From Cafeteria roenbergensis (Eukaryota > Sar > Bigyra > Bicosoecida > Cafeteriaceae), in contig VLTN01000028.1 of assembly GCA_008330645.1 (NCBI GenBank), positions 124,001 to 188,000 on the forward strand: DNA of 64,000 nucleotides, written 5' to 3'. Numbering within the stretch: the first letter of the stretch is position 1; each line of letters begins with the position of its first letter. This document shows positions 52,170-64,000 of the stretch, in pieces. The notes below the pieces were generated by a model, which had not been told where the DNA came from, did no database searches, and saw only the letters and a program-made list of their open reading frames with translations. The position numbers were made by a program, and so were the translations under genes.

Positions 52170-52506
52170 GGGGAGCGTCTGCGCCGGCAGGGCAGGGCGA
52201 GAAGGCCTCTGACGCGAATGAGGCCTCGCCGGGGGGTTGTGATGTGTGTGTGTGCTTGCGTGCTTGCGTCTGTGCTCGTGTGTGCTTGCGCTTGCTTGGG
52301 CGTTCAAGGCGGGCGGGCGCTGCCAAGCACGCGGTGGCCTGGAAGCGCGCGTGCGGCCGGCGGAACGCAGGGCCGGAACGCCATGGCTGAGCGGGCCGCG
52401 CCACAACTCTTCGACTCCGGCCGGCGGTGCGGCGGAGCGGCGGTGCGGGCTCTGCAGGTGCTGCCGCGCGCCTCGCGGGCGCGAACCGCACGCTCACAGG
52501 CCGAGG
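52170..52506. promoter_or_regulatory. Upstream region of ABCB transporter
   Basis: These 337 bp include a TG/TTGC-rich stretch at 52240-52310. The transporter frame is open from 52246 but has no ATG until 52507. Confidence 0.35.
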
Positions 52507-54543
52507 ATGCGAGCGGCCCGGGCAGTGCGCGTGCGGCTCTCGCCCTCACCGCTGCCGCGGGCGACGGCCCAGGCGCGGGTGCCCGCAGTCGTGGCGAGGC
52601 ACGCGTTGCCTGGCATCGCCGTTTCCGCCGCGCGGGCAAGCCACGGCGGCCGGGAATGGAAGCTCCGCGACTTCATGGGCGCGGGTTCTGTTCTTGCAAT
52701 GGTGGCGGCCGTGTCGGCGGCGCGGCAAGAGTCTGCAATGGAGGCGGCGACGATGCGCGTGTCTGTGCCCCGCCCGCGCTTGAGGAAGCAGGCGGAAACT
52801 CGCGGACGGTCAATGGTGACGCACTTGTGGGAATGGGTCCGGCCGGAGCTGCCCTGGCTGGTCGCGGGCGCTGCCCTTGCGGTGGGGGCGGCCGCGCTGT
52901 CCGTGCTGGCGCCGGGCGCGGTGGGCCGGTTGCAGGACTCCGCCGCGTCGGGGAGCAGCCCCGTTCCTGCGCTGGTCACCCTCGGCGGCCTGGTCCTGGG
53001 TCGGTTTGCGCTGGAGTACGGCGCCTCGACCGTGATCACGGCTTCGTGCCAGAACGTCGCCGATCGCATGCGCATGGAGCTCTTCTCGCAGCTGCTGCGA
53101 TCGGACATTGCGTTTTTCGACGCGTCCTCCACGGGCCAGCTGGCCAAGCACCTCGACTCGGACGTCAAGCAGGTCCGCGACGCTATCAGAGACGTTGCGA
53201 GCAAGGGCGTGAGAGCGGCCGCCACCACGGTGGGCGGTCTGGCCACGCTGCTGTGGCTCTCCCCGACGCTTACAGGCGGGCTGGTGGTGCTGCTGGCGCC
53301 GCTGGTGCTGGCCGGGAACCTCTTCGGGGCGCACATGCGGAGGCTCGCCTCTGCGTCGTCCGACGCGTCGGCAGCCGCCGCCGGGGTCGCGTCCGAGTCG
53401 CTTGCCAACGTGCGCGTGGTGCGGGCATTCAACGCGGAGCCCGCGGAGCAGCGACGCTATGGGGACGCGCTCAAGGTCGCCTCCGACAGGTCGAGAGACG
53501 TCGCCCAGGCGGTGTCCTTCTTCGCGGGCGGAGCAACGCTGGCGCTCAACGCCGTGACCGGGGCAGTCCTGGCGGGCGGGTCGGCGCTGGTGGCAGCGGG
53601 CGCCATGACCCAGGGCCAGGTGGGCACATTCCTCGTCCACACGCTGGGGCTCTCGGGGAGTCTCGAGGCGGTGTCACTGCAGGTGAATGGCACGAACAAG
53701 GCGCTGGGCGCCGCCACTCGCCTGAGCAACATGCTGGACGCCAAGCCCACCGCAAACGCGCCGGGCGGAGCCCAGCCGGGCCCGCTTGAGGGCGACATCG
53801 AGTGGCGCGGGGTCGGGTTCGCGTACCCGAGCCGGCCGTCCGCCAAGGTGCTCGACGACCTGTCCCTCTCGGTGAAGCGAGGGTCCACGCTGGCCCTGGT
53901 GGGCGGCTCGGGGGCCGGAAAGTCGACGGCGGGGCAGCTGCTGCTTCGGTTCTACGACCCGGACGCCGGCGCAGTGCTGGTGGACGGCCACGATCTGCGC
54001 GACGTGGACCCGCGCTGGTACAGGGAGTCCGTTGCTGTGGTGCCGCAGCACCCCCTGCTGTTTGCCGCGTCGGTGCTCGACAACGTGCTGTACGGCAAGC
54101 CGGACGCAACTCGCGCGCAGGTGGAAAACGCGCTGCGCGAGGCCCAGTGCGACTTCGTGTTCGACCTGCCCGAGGGGCTCGACACGGTGCTCTCCGAGGG
54201 CGGAGGGTCGCTCTCGGGCGGGCAGAAGCAGAGGCTGAGCCTGGCCAGGGCGCTCGTGCGCGACCCCCGCATCCTGCTCCTGGACGAGGCAACTGCCGCG
54301 CTCGACGCCGAGTCGGAGGGCAAGGTGCAAGCGGCGCTCGAGCGCGCCTGCCAGGCTCGCCGCAGGACAGTTGTGGTCATCGCCCACCGGCTGTCCACGG
54401 TGCGCATGGCCGACTCCATCGCCGTGCTGCAACGCGGTCGCGTGGTGGAGCAGGGCACCCACGCGGAGCTGCTCCGCAGGGGCGGCGCCTACGCGTCGCT
54501 GGTGCAGAAGCAGCGCGGGGCCGACCACGCCAGTCTCGAGTGA
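52507..54543 (+). CDS. ABCB-type half transporter, likely mitochondrial
   Basis: This single exon gives 678 aa, the usual size of ABCB8/ABCB10-type half transporters. The N-terminus (MRAARAVRVRLSPSPLPRAT) is rich in Arg/Ala/Ser without acids, like a mitochondrial presequence. The transmembrane domain spans about residues 110-400 (SDIAFFDASSTGQLAKHLDS is typical of its first coupling region, and SLANVRVVRAFNAE of the next). The nucleotide-binding domain has Walker A GGSGAGKST, a Q-loop (VVPQHPLLF), signature LSGGQKQR, Walker B ILLLDEATAALD and H-loop VVIAHRLST, all intact. It should work as a homodimer. The substrate is unknown. The start was chosen as the first ATG in the frame. Confidence 0.9.
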   Translation: MRAARAVRVRLSPSPLPRATAQARVPAVVARHALPGIAVSAARASHGGREWKLRDFMGAGSVLAMVAAVSAARQESAMEAATMRVSVPRPRLRKQAETRGRSMVTHLWEWVRPELPWLVAGAALAVGAAALSVLAPGAVGRLQDSAASGSSPVPALVTLGGLVLGRFALEYGASTVITASCQNVADRMRMELFSQLLRSDIAFFDASSTGQLAKHLDSDVKQVRDAIRDVASKGVRAAATTVGGLATLLWLSPTLTGGLVVLLAPLVLAGNLFGAHMRRLASASSDASAAAAGVASESLANVRVVRAFNAEPAEQRRYGDALKVASDRSRDVAQAVSFFAGGATLALNAVTGAVLAGGSALVAAGAMTQGQVGTFLVHTLGLSGSLEAVSLQVNGTNKALGAATRLSNMLDAKPTANAPGGAQPGPLEGDIEWRGVGFAYPSRPSAKVLDDLSLSVKRGSTLALVGGSGAGKSTAGQLLLRFYDPDAGAVLVDGHDLRDVDPRWYRESVAVVPQHPLLFAASVLDNVLYGKPDATRAQVENALREAQCDFVFDLPEGLDTVLSEGGGSLSGGQKQRLSLARALVRDPRILLLDEATAALDAESEGKVQAALERACQARRRTVVVIAHRLSTVRMADSIAVLQRGRVVEQGTHAELLRRGGAYASLVQKQRGADHASLE

Positions 54544-54961: not shown

Positions 54962-57900
54962 ATGGCCACTGCCGGAGCTGCTGGCGGCTCCGGCGCCGAC
55001 TCGCCAGCTGGCGTCAGGGATGCGCCAGACACCAGGGGCTTGCAGCGGCTGGCCGAGGACCTGCACGCCTGCGTCTCCATCCAGGACCGGTGAGGCGAGA
55101 GAGGCAGGGCGGCGTGGCAAGGTCACAGCGCGGCTGTGCTGGCCGGACGCAGGCCGCGCTTGGCAAGGGCGGCGGGCCTGCGCGGCGATTCGCTCGAGCG
55201 CTCGGAGATTGCCAAGCCCGGGAAAAGGCAGCAGCAGCAGGCGGGAAGCTGTCGGCCCGGCGCGCGTGTGCTTGGCGCCGCGCTGGCTCGCCTGGCGCCG
55301 CGCCGCGCCAGGACGGGAGCTGCGCGGGCCCCGAGCGGGCGGGCATGGCCTCCCCCACGCTGCCGCAGGCACTCGGGCGCTTGCAGCTGCGCCGAGGCCG
55401 ACTGACTCGCTGCCGGCCAGGGCAGACCCACCCCGCTCCCCGCCCAAGCGTCTGCCCACCGCCCGCCCCCGCCGCAGGGCGTTCCGCCTGTTCCGGTACC
55501 GCGCATGCTTCGTGGCGAGCGAGGCCGTGGACTGGATGGTGGAGTCCCGGCGGGCTCCAGGGCGCAACGAGGCTGTGCAGCTCGGTCGCCTGTTGCAGGC
55601 GAGCGGCTACGTGCATCACGTGGTGGACGACCACGACTTCAAGGACGAATTCTTGTATTTTCGCTTCTACTGCGGTGAGTCGCCCTCCTCGAGCAGCTAA
55701 CTCCGAGCACGCGGCAGCTCCCGCTGCGACGAGCTGCGCGGTGAAAGGGCTTGGCGCTTGCCGCCGCTTGTTGAAGCTGGGCAAAGGCTGCAAAAACACC
55801 GCGTGGCGCGCGCTTTAAGCTAGGCTCGTCTGACTCCAGAGCCCCGTGATTGCGCCCTCGGCCCATTGCGCGGCGCAGACGAGCCCGAGAGGCAGCCCGC
55901 GGGCGAATACCCGGGCGTGGTGCCCCTCCGCTCCCTGGTGGCGGCGGCCTCCAGCCCCTCAGGCCGCCGCAGCGCGGTCGTGCCCGCGGATGCGCCTTCG
56001 CTTGGCTCCCCTGAGGCAAGGGCGCTGCTTGCGAGCTCCAGTGCGGCCAAGGAGCTGGACACGACTGCCGGCAGGTCTCAACTTGCAGACCGCTTGGCGG
56101 GCGACAGGTCGCCCCCGCTGTCGCCAAGAACCGTCTTCTCGGCGTCCTCGATCGCATCGACCGCTGCTTCCGCGGGACCGCGCGCCCCTCCGGCTGGGAC
56201 CGTGGCTGGGCTCAGGGCCGCGCTGATGCCGCTTGCGGTTCGCCTTCGGGCGCGCCTCGACACTCGGGACCGCGTGTTTCACCTCAGAACGTACCGCAAC
56301 TCCTTTGTGGGGTCGCAGTGCGTGGATTTGCTAGTCCGCTGGGGGCTGGTTCCCTCCCGGGTCATGGCGGTGGCGCTGGGCAGGCAGTTGCTCGCGGCGC
56401 GATTCATCCACCACGTCGTGAGTCCGCTCCCCGCCTCCGCCCCGCGCCTCTCCGCCGCGCCGCCCGCTCCGCCTCTGCGCTCCCGCTGCGGCCACGTGGT
56501 CACAGGCGTTGCCGCAGCCTCGCGACGCAAATCAGCGCTGCTGTCGGCGGCGGCGATCCCATGCGAAAGCACGAGCGCTGTGTCTCAAGCCCCATCATTC
56601 GTGTGTTTTTGTGAACCGGGAAGCTGGCTGTCCCGCTCCGCCCGCAGTGTGATGACCACGACTTCCGCGACGGCGAGCTCTTTTACCGCTTCTTCGCTGA
56701 CGAGGACGACGAGGACGCCGCAACGCGCTTCTTCGCCTCGCCCATCCTGGACATTCCGACCCTCGCGAGACCCTCGCCTGTCGTGCCCAAGCTCTCCCGG
56801 GCGCCCCGCGCTCGGGGAACCGACCGCCCCTCCTGGCGAATCCCCTCGCACGTGGCCTGCAACAGCCCCATCACGGGCCTGGCGGTGAGCGACGCCCTGC
56901 AGTGGGCCATCGGCACGGCTGACCCCCTCGCCACCGCCTGGTGCCTGGGCGTGATGCGCCGGCGCGCCCGCTTCCTCGCCCTCTCGCGGCCCGGGGCGCG
57001 CCGCACCATCGCCGGCGCCGCCGCCACCCGCTTCGCCGCAATGCCCCCGTCAGCCCGCCGCGCGGAGCCAGGCACCCCCGAGTACCTCTGGCAGCCCTTT
57101 CCCGAGGGAAACCCCTGGGAGGAGATCCGCGCCGGCGACGGCGGCGCCCGCTGCCGCGTCTGGCGCCTCTCCGGCGATCGGGTGCACCAGCTCTACCGGG
57201 CAGAGGCGGTGGTCGACGCGTCGCTTGGCGACGCGCGGCTCTGCATCGCCAGCCTGGCCAACAGAGGCGTCTGGGACACGGCTTGCGAGGAGCCTCGGGT
57301 CATCGGCAGAGTGGACGTGGACCGCCGGGCGCTGGAGGCGGCCACCTGGGAGCAGCCCGGGTCCGGGGGCGATCCCCGCGCGGACGCGCTGGCAGGGTCG
57401 GGGGCTGGGTCGGTGTCCACGGGGTCGTCCGGCCGCAACTCAGTGCGCCTCGGCGCCAGCGAGCGGCCGGACCGGCAGCGCTCCGGCAGCGCTGCTGGGT
57501 CGGTGGGCTCGAACCTCAGCGGCGCCAGCGCTGGTGGCAGGGTCGCTGGTGCCGATGTTGGCGTCTCAGTCGCGAGCTCTCACCTGCAGGGGTCCACCGC
57601 GTCGTCCTCGTCGCTGGCAGGATCTGACGCCGACGGGCTCGGCCCGCTGGTGTCACTACCAGTGCCCCGCCGCGCTGGCCGCTCCACCACCTCGCCCATG
57701 TCCGTTGGGCGCGGCGCCAACTCACAGCAAGCCGCCAAGGAGCTGCGCAAGGCGGCGGTGGGCGAAACGGCCCGCCTGGTGCGGCTGATCGGGGCGGCGG
57801 AGGTGCTGCGCATTCTCGAGGGGGCAGTGCGGGTCTCTGCGCAGCAGACCGGGGCTGGAGGCGGCGCTGGAGGGGCAGCCGCTGACTCTGCCCCGTCGTC

Positions 57901-60900
57901 GCCCTCCTCGTCTCACTCCGCGTCCCCCCGCCGGAGAGACTTGACTCGCCCTGCCTCCCGAGCGCCCGCCATGTCGCCCGTGGGCAGCGCGGCCGAGGTG
58001 TCCAGTCCGGCTTCGCCAGCTCCGCCGAAGCAGGCAGCGGTGCCTGCGCTCGCAGCCGACGTCAGCGGCCTCACCGGCCGCCAGGACGAGCCCCTGCTTC
58101 ACGAAACTGTCGGCAGAATGATTCGCCGGTTCTTCGGGGGGGGAAAGGACTCCTCCGCCTCCTCGCCGACGTCATCGTCAGGGGCGGGGACAGGAGCGGC
58201 GAGCGGTGCCGGCGCTCAGTCGTCGGGGTCCCGGAGCAGGGGCGGGGGCAGCGGCACCAGCCGGCGAGTCGCTCCCGCCGACAGCTCCACGTCGCACGGC
58301 GGGCGGCTGTCCCCAGCGAGCGGGCCTAGCGGCGCGTCCGTCGCGAGCGGCAGCGGCAGCGGCAGCGGCAGCGGCAGCGGCAGCAGCGCAGGCCGAGCTG
58401 GGGCCACGGAGCAGGGGACGGGGGGCGGAGCTGCCGCCGCCGCCAGGGCTCGCCGCGGGGTCGGCGCGGCCGTTGCCAGCGGCGACGGCAGCGGGCGAGC
58501 CGGCGGCTTCCCGACCGCGGCTTCTGCTCGGGCCGCGTCTGCCTCCGTGCTCCGCCGCCACCCGGCAATGCCGCTCAGCGGCCCGATGGTGGGCGGCTCG
58601 GGCCAGGGCGGGCTTCCGCTGTCGGGCTCTGCTGACTCGCTAGCGAGCCTTGGCCACGACGGGCTTGCTCTGCCGGGCGACGATCTCGGCATCGAGGAGG
58701 ACGCCCATCACCCGGGCAGCCGGAGGGGTCACGGCGGACGCCACGCCAGGCCGCGTGGCGGGTCGGAGACGCTGCGGCCCGGGTCGCCTTCGCACCGGGT
58801 GGGCAGAGACTCCGCGGGCGTGGACGCGTCGGCGGTACGGCGGCTGTCCTCGGCCACCGAGTCGTCGGGGAACTCGTCCGGCTCTGCCGGCGTGGCCACG
58901 TCGTCGTGGGGCTACCACGACGGCCCCACGGACCAGACGGTTCTTGCGTCGCTGGTTGGCGGCGGCGCAGGAGGAATCCAGCCTGCTGCGGGCGCGACCC
59001 ACTCGCCGTCCGCGGCGGCTGCTGCCGCGCTGGGCGCCGCAGCGAGGGGGGAGGGCCTCCCCCACTCGGGCCAGTGGCCTTCGGACACGCCCGAGGCGCG
59101 GGCAAGCAAGCTCGACAGCCTTGGCTCTGCCCGTCGTCGGAGCTTTCCGAGAATCATTCACCGGCGAATGCGCCCTCTTGCCATTTTCGTGGCGCCTCGC
59201 GACGCCGTCACCATCCAGGACGCTCACGCAGGCGCCATCCTCCTCGGGGAGGACGGAAGGGCCCTCGCGGGGCCCCCCCACGGGACCATCACGCAGCCAG
59301 GGGCCTGCGGAGGCGCTGCTCCCAGGGCCGGGTCGGCTGCGACGGAGGCGGCTGGATCGGCGTCGCAGCCGCGCGGCTCCACTGGCGAGGCCTCGGCCTC
59401 CACGCTGGGCCAGCCCCCCTGCCTTCCTGCGGCCTCGACTCCCTTCTTTACCCACTTGGAAGTGTCAGTGCAGCACTCGGAGCAGCGAAACCCCTCCCCC
59501 TCCAGGGCCGTCCGGGCCGAGGTCGTCCTTGAGTGTTGGTCTTTCTTCGACGTCAGCACGGGTGCCGTGGGGCCGGAGGGCGAGAAGCCCCGCACGCTGG
59601 TCGTGCTGACGTCCTGCTTGTTCCCAGGGCCGCTCCCCATGTGGCTGAGCAACACGCTGCTGGACGCACAGGCGGCGGGGCCCGTGGAGAGGCTGGCCGG
59701 TGCGCTGCGGATGCTTTCGAACGCGAGGCGCCGGCAGCGCGAGGCGGCGGGCGGAGGCAGGCACGCCGGCCGCCCCTCCCGCGGTGGTAGCGACGCGGCC
59801 GCCCGTGGCCGGCGGGGCCACCGGCCTGGCGCCTCGACAGGGGACAGCTCCGCCATCCGGTCGGACGCCTCGGCGGGCTCGCGCGGCTACGACCAGGACG
59901 GTGCGACGTCCGACGGCAGAGCGGTCCGCGGCCGCAGAGACGCAGCTGGCACAGGGGCCACGGGGGCGGAGCCCCCTGCGGCCGCCTCCGGCCGCGGCGG
60001 GCGCAGCCGCGAAGTCGCGACCGGCAAGAAGCGGCCGTCGAGCCCGGACGCCGCCGCTGTGTTCCGGCACACGAGCCACGCTGCCGCGCGGGCGCGGGAG
60101 GAGCTCGAGGCGGGAGGGGCGGCGGGCGACGCCGCGAGCCGCGCCGCATCCAGGGCCGTGTCGCCGTCCTCCGTGCCTGGCACCGAGGGCGGTCCCATGT
60201 CCGTGGCGGGCACGACGGGGCCCTCCAGCCTCCCCTGGGCCAACCCCTTCATGGCAAGCAGCCCCGGGACCGGGGGCGTGGACGTGCGTGCGGCCACGGG
60301 CTCGGAGGGCAGCAGCCTCAAGAGCACGGCCGACCCGTTGGCGGCGGCCGCCGCCGCCACTGCTGCCGGGAAGCGCGCGGCAGCCGCTGTGCTGGCTCGC
60401 TACGCGGAGGCCGAGGCGCCCACGTCGTCGGAGAGCGACCTCGGGTCGGACTCCGGGTCGGACACCGGCACGGGCCGTGGTCGTAGGGGCACCCGCAGCG
60501 GAGCCGGCGGCGACGACGAAGACTTCGACGATGAGGACAACGCGACGGAAGGCCGGTCGGCCGGGCGTGGCGACCGCGACCGTGACCGCAGCTCCCCCGC
60601 CTCGGGGGGCGTTTCCGAGTTTGGAAGGGGGGGCAAACGCATGAGCCGGGCCGCCAAGAGCCTCCTGGCGGACAACGCGATCAGGGACGTCACCGGGACC
60701 AGCGCGGCGCCCGTCGTCGCCCGCCGCTCTGCGCTGTCGGGCACGAGCTCTGCCGCCACCGGGGCTTCCTCGCAGCCGGGCTCGAGGCAGTCGAGCGGGG
60801 TGTCGCCGACGGCGGCTGCAGCAGGCGCTGCTGCAGCGGCTGCGCTGCCCGTCCCTCCCGCGCCTCGCCCTCCTCGCCTGAGCGACTTTGACGTTCTCGC

Positions 60901-62398
60901 CGTCCTTGGCAGGGGCGGCTACGGCAAGGTGATGCAGGTGCGCCATCGGCCCTCCGGCGCCGTGTTTGCGATGAAGGTCCTTCGCAAGTCATCGCTCGTC
61001 AAGCGAGGCCAGGTCGCCCGCACGCTCACCGAGCGCGACATCCTCGCCTCGGCCGCGCACCCCTTCGTCGTGGGGCTGCGCTGCGCGATGCAAACGTCGC
61101 GCAAGCTTTACCTCTGTATGGACTTTGTGGCGGGGGGTGACTTCTTCACGCTCCTCTCTCGCCGCGGAGCCGTGGCCGAGCGACGCGCCCGCGTCTACGT
61201 TGCGGAGCTGGTCCTGGCTTTGGCGTACCTGCACTCGCGGGGGGTCGTCTACCGCGACCTCAAGCCCGAAAACGTCCTGCTGGACGCAGAGGGCCATGTG
61301 AAGCTCGCCGACTTTGGCCTCAGCCGGCTCCCCGTGCGCCGCTCCCTCTCGGGTCTGCCGCTTGGCGTTGCCAAAGGCATGGGCTCGGAGCGTGAGCCGC
61401 CCGCGCCGTCGGACCCCGCCGCCGATGACGAGGACTCGGTTGCGGCCGCCGCGCTCGTCGCTGGACTCTCGCCTGGGCAGGTGGTGCGCTCAGTGGGCCC
61501 GACGGAGCAGTCGTTCAGCTTCTGCGGCACGGAGCAATACATGGCGCCCGAGGTGCTGCTGCAGTCCGGGCACACCGCCACGTGTGACTGGTGGTCTCTG
61601 GGAATCTTCCTCAGCGGTGAGCGCGGGCACGTTGCCGTCGCATTGTTCGCGCCGTGGGCAGCGCGCCACAGGTTGCCTCTCCCTGCGCTTGCCTGGCTCG
61701 CCGCCTGCGTGAAGCCTCGCCTTGTCCAGTTGCCCGGCGCCGCGCCCCTCCCCCCCCCCCTCTTCCCCAGCCCGCCGCGTCCTGTGCCAGCGCCTGCCAA
61801 CGGACGGCTCTGTCGCTTGTTTCCCCCTCCCTGTCTCGCAGAGCTCCTCACCGGCCAGCACCCGTTCCGTGGCGACAGCCACTACAACACCCTGCGCAAC
61901 ATGGTGCACCCTGCAGTGCAACCGATGACCCTCGGGCTCGTGTCCGCCGAGGCGGCCTCCCTCCTCGCAAGCCTCCTCACTCGAGAGCCCAAGCACCGGC
62001 TCGGCAGCCCCGAGTCCGGAGGCGCCCTCGCGATCACCCGCCACCCCTGGTTCGCGGGTCTCGACTGGCACGCCGTCTACCGCCGGGAGGTGTTGCCCGG
62101 CTACCGCCCGCCCACGGCGTCCCCAGCCGACACGTCCCTGTTCGATTCCGAGTTCACGAGGGAATCTCCCATCGACTCCGTGGCATCGTCGGTGGGCGAC
62201 GGGCTGGCGTACGAGCAGCGCCGCCTCCGGGCGCCCATGGAGGACGACGTGGCTGGCGGCAGCGCCCTCGGAGAAGCAGAGCCCCTCGTGCGAGGCGCCT
62301 CGCCGACGCCTGGCGCCGACGGTGAGGGCGCCTCCCTGTCGGCGGATGGCACCCCGCTGTGGTACTTCCCTCGCTGGGAAGTGGCTCTGCAGCCTTAG
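54962..62398 (+). CDS. DEP-DEP-START-AGC serine/threonine protein kinase
   Basis: Five exons (54962-55089, 55478-55674, 55879-56417, 56648-61616, 61842-62398) give 2129 aa, with every junction GT-AG and in phase. DEP1 covers residues 43-108 (FVASEAVDWMV, FKDEFLYFRFY). DEP2 covers about 230-305 and is itself split by an intron (FVGSQCVDLLVRWG, FRDGELFYRFF). A START-like lipid-binding domain is divided: first part about 430-515, second part about 1120-1313 (LAIFVAPRDAVTIQDA, LFPGPLPMWLSNTLLD). The kinase (about 1700-2020) has GRGGYGKV, AMKVL, YRDLKPEN, DFGLS and FCGTEQYMAPE, all catalytic residues present, plus a 60-residue activation-loop insert. An AGC tail (LFDSEFTRESP) follows, but no clear hydrophobic motif. 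Membrane-lipid-responsive signalling is inferred from the domains. Confidence 0.88.
58346..58385 (+). repeat. AGCGGC repeat (Ser-Gly) in DEP kinase
   Basis: About seven AGCGGC hexamers encode a Ser-Gly run inside the disordered insert that splits the START-like domain. Confidence 0.85.
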
Positions 62399-62857: not shown

Positions 62858-64000
62858 TCACTCGACCATGGGCTTGCGCCTGCGATGGCCGTCGTCCTTG
62901 GGGGGCTCCGCGAGCAGCTTCTCCACGCGACGCTGGTAGCGCTCCTCCTCGCGCTCCTGCAGCTTGCCCTCGAGGTACTCGAGCTGCGCCTCGCGAGCGC
63001 GCATGGCCTCCCGCCGGGCGATCTGCGCTGCGTTGTCGCGGCGCTGCTGCTCCGCCCGCTCGCGGATTGCGCGCCGGCGGTTGTCGTCGTCGATCGCGAG
63101 GCGCCTGTCGCGCTCTGCCGTGGCCTGGCGCATGCGCTCGTCCTCCGCTGCCTCCGCCGCTCGCCTGTCGGCCAGCTCTGCCCTCTGCCGCTCCCTGGTG
63201 CGAGCGACCTCTTCATCGAGGAGCCGCTTGGCCTCCGCCTGCGCTGCCCAGACCGCCTCTCGCTTGGCCCACTCCTTCTCCTGGTACGCTGCGAAGAACT
63301 GGTCGAACTTGTCGCCGGCCTCCGCCTCAACGGCCATCTGCCGCTCCAGGGCCCCCCTGTGTGCCCTCGCCTCCGCCCTGCGAGCCTCTGCCGCAGCGCG
63401 CTCGGCTTCAGCCTGCCGCTGCTCGCGCTCCACAATGCTGGCGATGCGCGATCGGTCCCGGTCCGCCTCCTCTGCCGCCTGCCGCCTGAGGACCTCTTCC
63501 GCCCTGGCGTTGGCCTCCCGCGTTCGCGCCAGCTCCTCCCGGGCCGCTCGCTTGCGCTCCGCCGCCGCAGCCTCGGCCTCCTCCGCCTCTCTCCGCCACC
63601 GCTCCAACGCGTCTTCGTCTGCCGCGGCGGCGTGGCCCACCGCCCTCCGGTGGAGCTCCTGCTTCACCGCCACCTGCGCGTCAAGCTCGACCCGGAGGCG
63701 GGCCTCTGCGGCCTTGCGGGTGCGCAAGCGCTCCGCCGCCTTGGCCTCCTCCTCCTGTGACCTGGCCAGAATCGCCAGCTCCTGCGCTCTGTCGGCCGCC
63801 TTCTCTTCGCGGGTGCGCGTCACCTTGTCTCGGAGCTGCGCCACGCGGTCGTCGGCCATGCGCTGAGCGAGAATGGCCGAGTCGCGGGCGCGCAGCAGGT
63901 CGCTGCCCTGGCGGAAGCGCCTCATTTCGAGCTCTTCGGCCTGGCGGCGGCGCTCGGCCTCGTTGCGGGCCTTGAGTTCGCGCGCCTTGGCGAACAGCCG
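62858..64000 (-). CDS. TPH-type coiled-coil protein (CFAP53/CFAP45-like), 5' end outside window
   Basis: The frame is open from the right edge to the TGA at 62858, about 380 residues of the C-terminal part. It is almost pure charged coiled coil with Arg/Glu/Ala heptads (KAADRAQELAILARSQEEE, KRLLDEEVARTRERQRAEL, AQLEYLEGKLQEREEERYQR), as in the trichohyalin-plectin-homology domain of ciliary proteins CFAP53, CFAP45 and MNS1. A less charged stretch, GDKFDQFFAAYQEKEW, breaks the coil midway. Family members lie inside axonemal doublet microtubules. Coiled coils align easily by chance, so the specific orthologue is open. The tail ends HRRRKPMVE. Confidence 0.65.
   Translation of the reverse strand, partial: RLFAKARELKARNEAERRRQAEELEMRRFRQGSDLLRARDSAILAQRMADDRVAQLRDKVTRTREEKAADRAQELAILARSQEEEAKAAERLRTRKAAEARLRVELDAQVAVKQELHRRAVGHAAAADEDALERWRREAEEAEAAAAERKRAAREELARTREANARAEEVLRRQAAEEADRDRSRIASIVEREQRQAEAERAAAEARRAEARAHRGALERQMAVEAEAGDKFDQFFAAYQEKEWAKREAVWAAQAEAKRLLDEEVARTRERQRAELADRRAAEAAEDERMRQATAERDRRLAIDDDNRRRAIRERAEQQRRDNAAQIARREAMRAREAQLEYLEGKLQEREEERYQRRVEKLLAEPPKDDGHRRRKPMVE

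Follow-up and report, generated by a model that had tools for sequence, protein, structure and literature searches.

A predicted two-DEP protein kinase of the AGC group with a probable but remote START-like region in Cafeteria roenbergensis

Lipid control of eukaryotic kinases usually runs through PH, C1, C2, PX or FYVE modules, which read membrane headgroups. A kinase and a START domain share one chain in wheat WKS1 (Yr36), a plant kinase of another group in which the kinase comes first and no DEP domain is present. In Leishmania, LdBPK_281800 is reported to be a lipocalin-FYVE-AGC kinase (PMC10341546), and Table 2 of the Phytophthora infestans kinome gives five DEP-bearing kinases, from the AGC and TKL groups, and does not list START (PMC3019232). 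The tandem DEP domains of DEPTOR are reported to bind phosphatidic acid (PMC8439649) and to contact mTOR in a solved complex (PMC8439649, PMC8439657). Here, we describe a gene at 54962-62398 on the + strand of a 64,000-nucleotide stretch of Cafeteria roenbergensis DNA (contig VLTN01000028.1, C28:124001-188000; the window), set against the rest of the genome (167 contigs, 36,303,456 bases in all). We read it, with a probability of about 0.5, as encoding one protein of 2142 residues that carries, from the N to the C terminus, a pair of DEP domains akin to those of DEPTOR and P-Rex, a START pocket that has diverged and is interrupted by a long disordered stretch, and an AGC kinase similar to RSK and S6K.

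The first-pass annotation of this DNA had placed two DEP domains, a START-like pocket and an AGC kinase in one chain. DEP-DEP-AGC in one chain was borne out, and START is the weak link of the architecture, probable but remote, on which Pfam is silent. The sequence itself shows both DEP domains, a kinase with its motifs intact, and one open frame throughout exon 4. The predicted gene has five exons and four GT-AG introns, all with the donor GTGAG, and in this single five-exon model it runs from an ATG at 54962 to a TAG stop at 62396-62398. Exon 4 (56648..61616, + strand; 4969 bases) keeps 1656 codons in one open frame, from the end of DEP2 through the START-like parts and the linkers to the kinase N-lobe and activation segment, that is, most of the kinase. 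When codon usage was trained on 2528 codons from other genes of the same genome, the exon 4 frame outscored the other + strand frames in all 20 blocks and led all six frames in 18 of them; in the remaining two blocks, a - strand frame scored above it. In addition, exon 4 holds two GT[AG]AG sites, compared to a mean of 3.96 in codon shuffles. The whole of exon 4 is read as coding. Introns within exon 4 were considered and set aside because the coding-frame result is against them.

The protein certainly contains two DEP domains, as judged by the Pfam DEP profile (PF00610), which matched two stretches with 132.2 bits (cut-off 32.7). DEP1 (55040..55674, + strand; residues ~27-108) is split by intron 1 and scored 65.7 bits with exon 2 alone, and DEP2 (56220..56701, + strand; residues ~236-319, with the Pfam stretch at 250-316) is split by intron 3 and scored 52 bits with exon 3 alone. 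Among solved structures, the pair is closest to DEPTOR (8.9e-25) and P-Rex1 (2.2e-22), followed by Epac-type Rap exchange factors. About 125 residues separate DEP1 from DEP2, and therefore a rigid DEPTOR-type tandem cannot be assumed. Five DEP matches were found in the genome at E 0.001 or better, two of them being DEP1 and DEP2; judged by position, the other three have no neighbouring kinase match among the 97 of 242 kinase candidates that were scored. A search of viral contigs for relatives of DEP1, which may omit near records, gave 51 pattern matches and no confirmed one. Another DEP gene, L002 (G000:C44:266399-269566, - strand), sits between a response-regulator-like open reading frame (ORF) and a pyridine-nucleotide-disulphide-reductase-like ORF; by eye it perhaps starts with MGTTQ, a possible myristoylation site.

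The kinase catalytic domain (60878..62059, + strand, with the intron 61617-61841 inside; residues ~1712-2030) scored 216.3 bits with Pfam Pkinase, and its catalytic motifs are intact (the G-loop GRGGYGKV, the lysine in AMKVL, YRDLKPEN and DFG). Together with an AGC C-tail recognised by Pkinase_C (24.9 bits, cut-off 20.9), these features place it in the AGC group. Among the best 60 of 203 PDB relatives, RSK chains came first, with RSK2 at 1e-81 and S6K1 at 2.7e-76 among the best matches. In trees with RSK2 as the only named reference, the kinase grouped with RSK2 in a 12-row tree (support 92/97), and when a paralog from contig C45 was added, the kinase, RSK2 and the paralog grouped at 88/91, with RSK2 and the paralog nearer each other (80/80). 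The activation segment carries an insert of 53 residues (61325..61504, + strand), so that 71 residues lie between DFG and CGT compared to 18 in RSK2, and the two Pkinase stretches lie on either side of this insert. Aligned with RSK2, the kinase has serine as its T-loop residue (SFSFCGT). A second, C-terminal kinase domain of the CAMK type, as in RSK, was not found in the Pfam scan, and about 110 residues follow HPWFAGLDW. As a separate observation, another AGC kinase of the genome, L019 (G000:C65:126548-130513), looks GRK-like by eye, and its N-terminal stretch resembles RGS.

The START-like region lies between the DEP pair and the kinase in three parts, all on the + strand. The N-terminal part (57110..57367; residues 456-541) is followed by a low-complexity insert (57368..59143; residues 542-1133; 18% each of glycine, serine and alanine) in which the coding signal is kept, then by a middle part with VAPRD (59144..59221; residues 1134-1159) and a C-terminal part with VRAE and GPLPMWLSN (59447..59734; residues 1235-1330). 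We built a START profile from eight sequences, five PDB START domains and three START domains of the same genome. Its positions 12-80 matched residues 471-539, positions 70-91 matched residues 1137-1158 (weak alone) and positions 106-167 matched residues 1241-1310. The joined halves scored 29.1 bits, the N-terminal half 14.4 bits and the middle plus C-terminal half 18.2 bits; the uncut protein gave three segments in the correct order, of which only the first was clear individually. The hhalign probability for the region and a START profile was 90.5%. As negative controls, hmmsearch reported 657 of 1000 shuffled sequences with a top score of 7.8, and the reversed sequence was not reported. The exon 4 ORF ranked first of the 494 ORFs in the window (11.5 bits, next 2.3). 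As a positive control, the profile retrieved 24 PDB sequences at E 0.001, 14 of them named StAR, START or MLN64 (including the five families used to build it); the other ten were CERT (four, one under a collagen-binding name), carotenoid-binding protein (four), PCTP and ACOT11, which we take to be START proteins as well.

Several results weigh against this assignment. Pfam START (PF01852, cut-off 22) matched neither half nor the joined halves, and it found START domains at three places elsewhere in the same genome with 41-57 bits. A phmmer search of PDB with the joined halves returned no START protein; up to E 10 it gave 29 matches, all weak (lowest E 0.063), namely one YrbA and otherwise fluorescent proteins, chromoproteins or a sensor derived from one. 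The same search with the middle and C-terminal part also returned no START protein. With a profile made of the five PDB sequences only, the joined halves scored 10.3 bits and the uncut exon 4 ORF 1.3 bits, second to an unrelated ORF at 2.4 bits. The segments had been picked by eye ahead of the profile test, and three of the eight profile sequences come from the same genome. When the pieces were joined in the wrong order, they still scored 21.3 bits, the sum of the three separate segments. As for the helix-grip fold of START domains, AlphaFold2, run with the single sequence of residues 413-1337, returned only a low-confidence model, with a mean predicted local distance difference test (pLDDT) score of 35.3. 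Paralogs of the START part did not turn up anywhere else in the genome at E values up to 10. Membership of the START family is supported by a START-family profile that was made here, was applied to segments picked by eye and is weak when PDB sequences are used alone. When the START call of the first-pass annotation was checked by profile, that of Pfam rejected both halves and that of eight sequences built here accepted them.

The alternative that survives best is that the protein is a DEP-DEP-AGC kinase only, in which the middle is a long disordered linker, the START-like motifs reflect chance or a defunct domain without lipid binding, and the DEP domains alone localise the kinase. The silence of Pfam START, the weak score of the uncut ORF with the PDB-only profile, and the presence of linkers of 593 and 376 residues rich in glycine, serine and alanine all favour it. 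However, both halves match the eight-sequence profile in order and above the best of the 1000 shuffles, and the uncut ORF comes first of 494 with that profile, so that we regard this alternative as rather unlikely. The START fold is probable, and we consider it quite likely that the middle region is a START domain that has diverged and is divided by some 590 residues of low complexity. Elsewhere in the genome, in positions 1501-3422 of L008 (G000:C5:656242-659664), a START domain (37.7 bits) is in frame with a hit to the catalytic domain of 2-oxoacid dehydrogenase acyltransferase (22.7 bits, barely under the cut-off of 23), with a hydrophobic stretch between the two domains and, by eye only, a PH-like stretch upstream.

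The C-tail bears on how such a kinase could be activated. The turn-motif region FDSEFTRESPIDS (62141..62179, + strand; residues 2058-2070), in the C-tail recognised by Pkinase_C, resembles the tail FTRETPVDSV of the paralog L026 and, with its S6K-like FTRESPIDS, the tail of S6K1. A pattern scan of the kinase tail found no strict hydrophobic motif (F-x-x-[FY]-[ST]-[FY]), and in this strict sense the motif is missing, as first annotated; the motif is not universal among AGC kinases. Near the C-terminal end, the scan found FPRWEV (62366..62383, + strand; residues 2133-2138), a possible degenerate, acidic hydrophobic motif. In 10,000 shuffled tails, the pattern F..[FYW][STDE][FYVIL] occurred in 0.25% and the loosest pattern in 5.2%, these patterns having been chosen after FPRWEV was seen. 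We also surveyed the tails of paralogs: 18 kinase loci were considered, and five were dropped because they did not fit the kinase-ORF pattern (L028 alone of these was scanned later). Six of the 13 loci examined carry F-x-x-[FYW]-[STDE]-[FYV] (L014, L015, L016, L018, L020 and L026), L017 has WGGFSF by eye, and the remaining six have no hydrophobic motif, at least one of them being cut by an intron. L028 has FRGFSF. This locus (L028/L042; G000:C45:42000-51500, - strand) is the C45 paralog of the tree, a kinase that resembles RSK/S6K and has a long insert in the activation segment, and its FRGFSF is displaced far past the turn-motif region. Since FPRWEV is acidic and the motif of the C45 paralog is displaced, FPRWEV is possibly a displaced, phosphomimetic hydrophobic motif. 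For the same reasons, the further suggestion that activation does without the C-tail switch agrees with the lack of a strict motif but is made less certain by this look-alike and by the displaced motif of the paralog.

As judged from the domains, the mechanism that fits best would be that of a membrane- and lipid-gated RSK/S6K-like kinase. The DEP pair would bring the protein to a signalling partner or to acidic membranes, where the START pocket would bind a lipid; lipid binding or docking would then free or position the tethered kinase. A PDK1-type kinase would phosphorylate the T-loop serine, and the usual hydrophobic-motif step would be lost or replaced. The two long linkers, of the composition given above, suggest that the modules are tethered rather than rigid. 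The link of membrane recruitment, lipid sensing and phosphorylation originally drawn is a fair reading of the domains, though it goes no further than inference. A bolder version, in which DEPTOR-like DEP domains sit on phosphatidic-acid or TOR-bearing membranes and the split START pocket of a single-chain S6K/RSK-class kinase reads a lipid that replaces hydrophobic-motif phosphorylation as the activating step, strikes us as doubtful.

A second alternative holds that the protein is a TOR-pathway kinase, whose DEPTOR-like DEP pair takes the place of a TOS motif and, in cis, brings the S6K/RSK-like kinase to TOR or to membranes with phosphatidic acid. DEPTOR is the best relative of the DEP pair, the kinase is nearest RSK/S6K and has the S6K-like tail, and no TOS motif was found in a scan of the protein. 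The scan found no RAIP motif either. However, P-Rex is almost as close as DEPTOR, so the DEP kinship may be generic; the order that defines DEPTOR, tandem DEP and then PDZ, is present here only in its DEP part, as Pfam gave no PDZ match at E values up to 1; and the strict hydrophobic motif, the site for TOR phosphorylation, is missing. The DEPTOR papers also describe DEPTOR as vertebrate-specific (PMC8439649) and report that its DEP domains in isolation show no significant mTORC1 binding (PMC8439649, PMC8439657). Taken together, these points make a TOR-pathway kinase distinctly unlikely. That two or more genes were misjoined, one for a DEP protein and another for a kinase with its start inside exon 4, might be suspected from the great length of exon 4 and a gene model made from DNA sequence alone, but it is very improbable, as exon 4 contains the end of DEP2 and its frame runs on without a stop into the kinase, with the coding signal kept.

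The other exons of the single-protein model, all on the + strand, are also bounded by recognisable signals. Exon 1 (54962..55089) is an ORF with the ATG and the start of DEP1, followed by a GTGAGG donor at 55090. Exon 2 (55478..55674), with most of DEP1, lies between a CAG acceptor at 55475-55477 and a GTGAGT donor at 55675. Exon 3 (55840..56417) encodes a linker and most of DEP2; it follows a CAG acceptor ending at 55839, has an alternative in-frame acceptor ending at 55878, and precedes a GTGAGT donor at 56418. Exon 5 (61842..62398), reached from a GTGAGC donor at 61617 through a CAG acceptor ending at 61841, holds the remainder of the C-lobe, the AGC tail and the TAG. Tandem repeats in the gene region are limited to a 17-base array in intron 3 and, within the low-complexity insert, a 6-base array. 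Downstream, a long ORF (62858-64000) lies on the opposite strand to the kinase gene; immediately upstream lies an ABC-transporter-like ORF (52243-54543, + strand) with Walker A and signature motifs by eye.

The combination had been thought uncharacterised. In the open literature, which leaves subscription papers and domain-architecture databases outside the search, no description was found that brings a DEP domain, a START domain and an AGC kinase together, or a START domain, a kinase domain and DEP domains; by term counts, DEP and START were not paired in open papers on protein kinases or stramenopiles. In the parts of the texts retrieved, no protein joining StAR-related lipid transfer to an AGC kinase was found, nor was a START-kinase fusion in a paper on Entamoeba START proteins. 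DEP with an AGC kinase is already known, since DEP-bearing AGC and TKL kinases are recorded in P. infestans. In the searches run, the new part is therefore the combination DEP-DEP-START-like-AGC, made from familiar parts. If the reading is true, the START pocket would give an AGC kinase a means of sensing a lipid that is buried, for example ceramide or a sterol. Cafeteria is described in the literature as a cultured host of giant viruses, and since it is in culture an experimental test is possible.

Among the closest known proteins, compared by domain content and not by order, the P. infestans kinases, also from a stramenopile, have DEP and kinase in one chain; START is unlisted in their table, in contrast to the START-like part here (PMC3019232). 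Leishmania LdBPK_281800, as reported, likewise combines an AGC kinase with a membrane domain and a fold that binds lipid, but both of these differ from the START-like and DEP parts here (PMC10341546). DEPTOR, with tandem DEP and PDZ, is the best solved relative of the DEP pair but has no kinase, whereas the protein here has no Pfam PDZ match up to E 1 and a wide spacing between its DEP domains. The motif order of the middle region fits the START profile, as in STARD3, STARD10 and StAR, although the region is under Pfam detection and split by the long insert. The kinase is 48% identical to the RSK2 N-terminal kinase over 298 columns; it differs from RSK and S6K1 in its activation-segment insert, its DEP-DEP-START-like N terminus, and the lack of a strict hydrophobic motif and of a C-terminal CAMK-type kinase. 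With its tandem DEP and RSK/S6K-class kinase, the predicted protein would unite parts that are found around TOR in separate vertebrate proteins.

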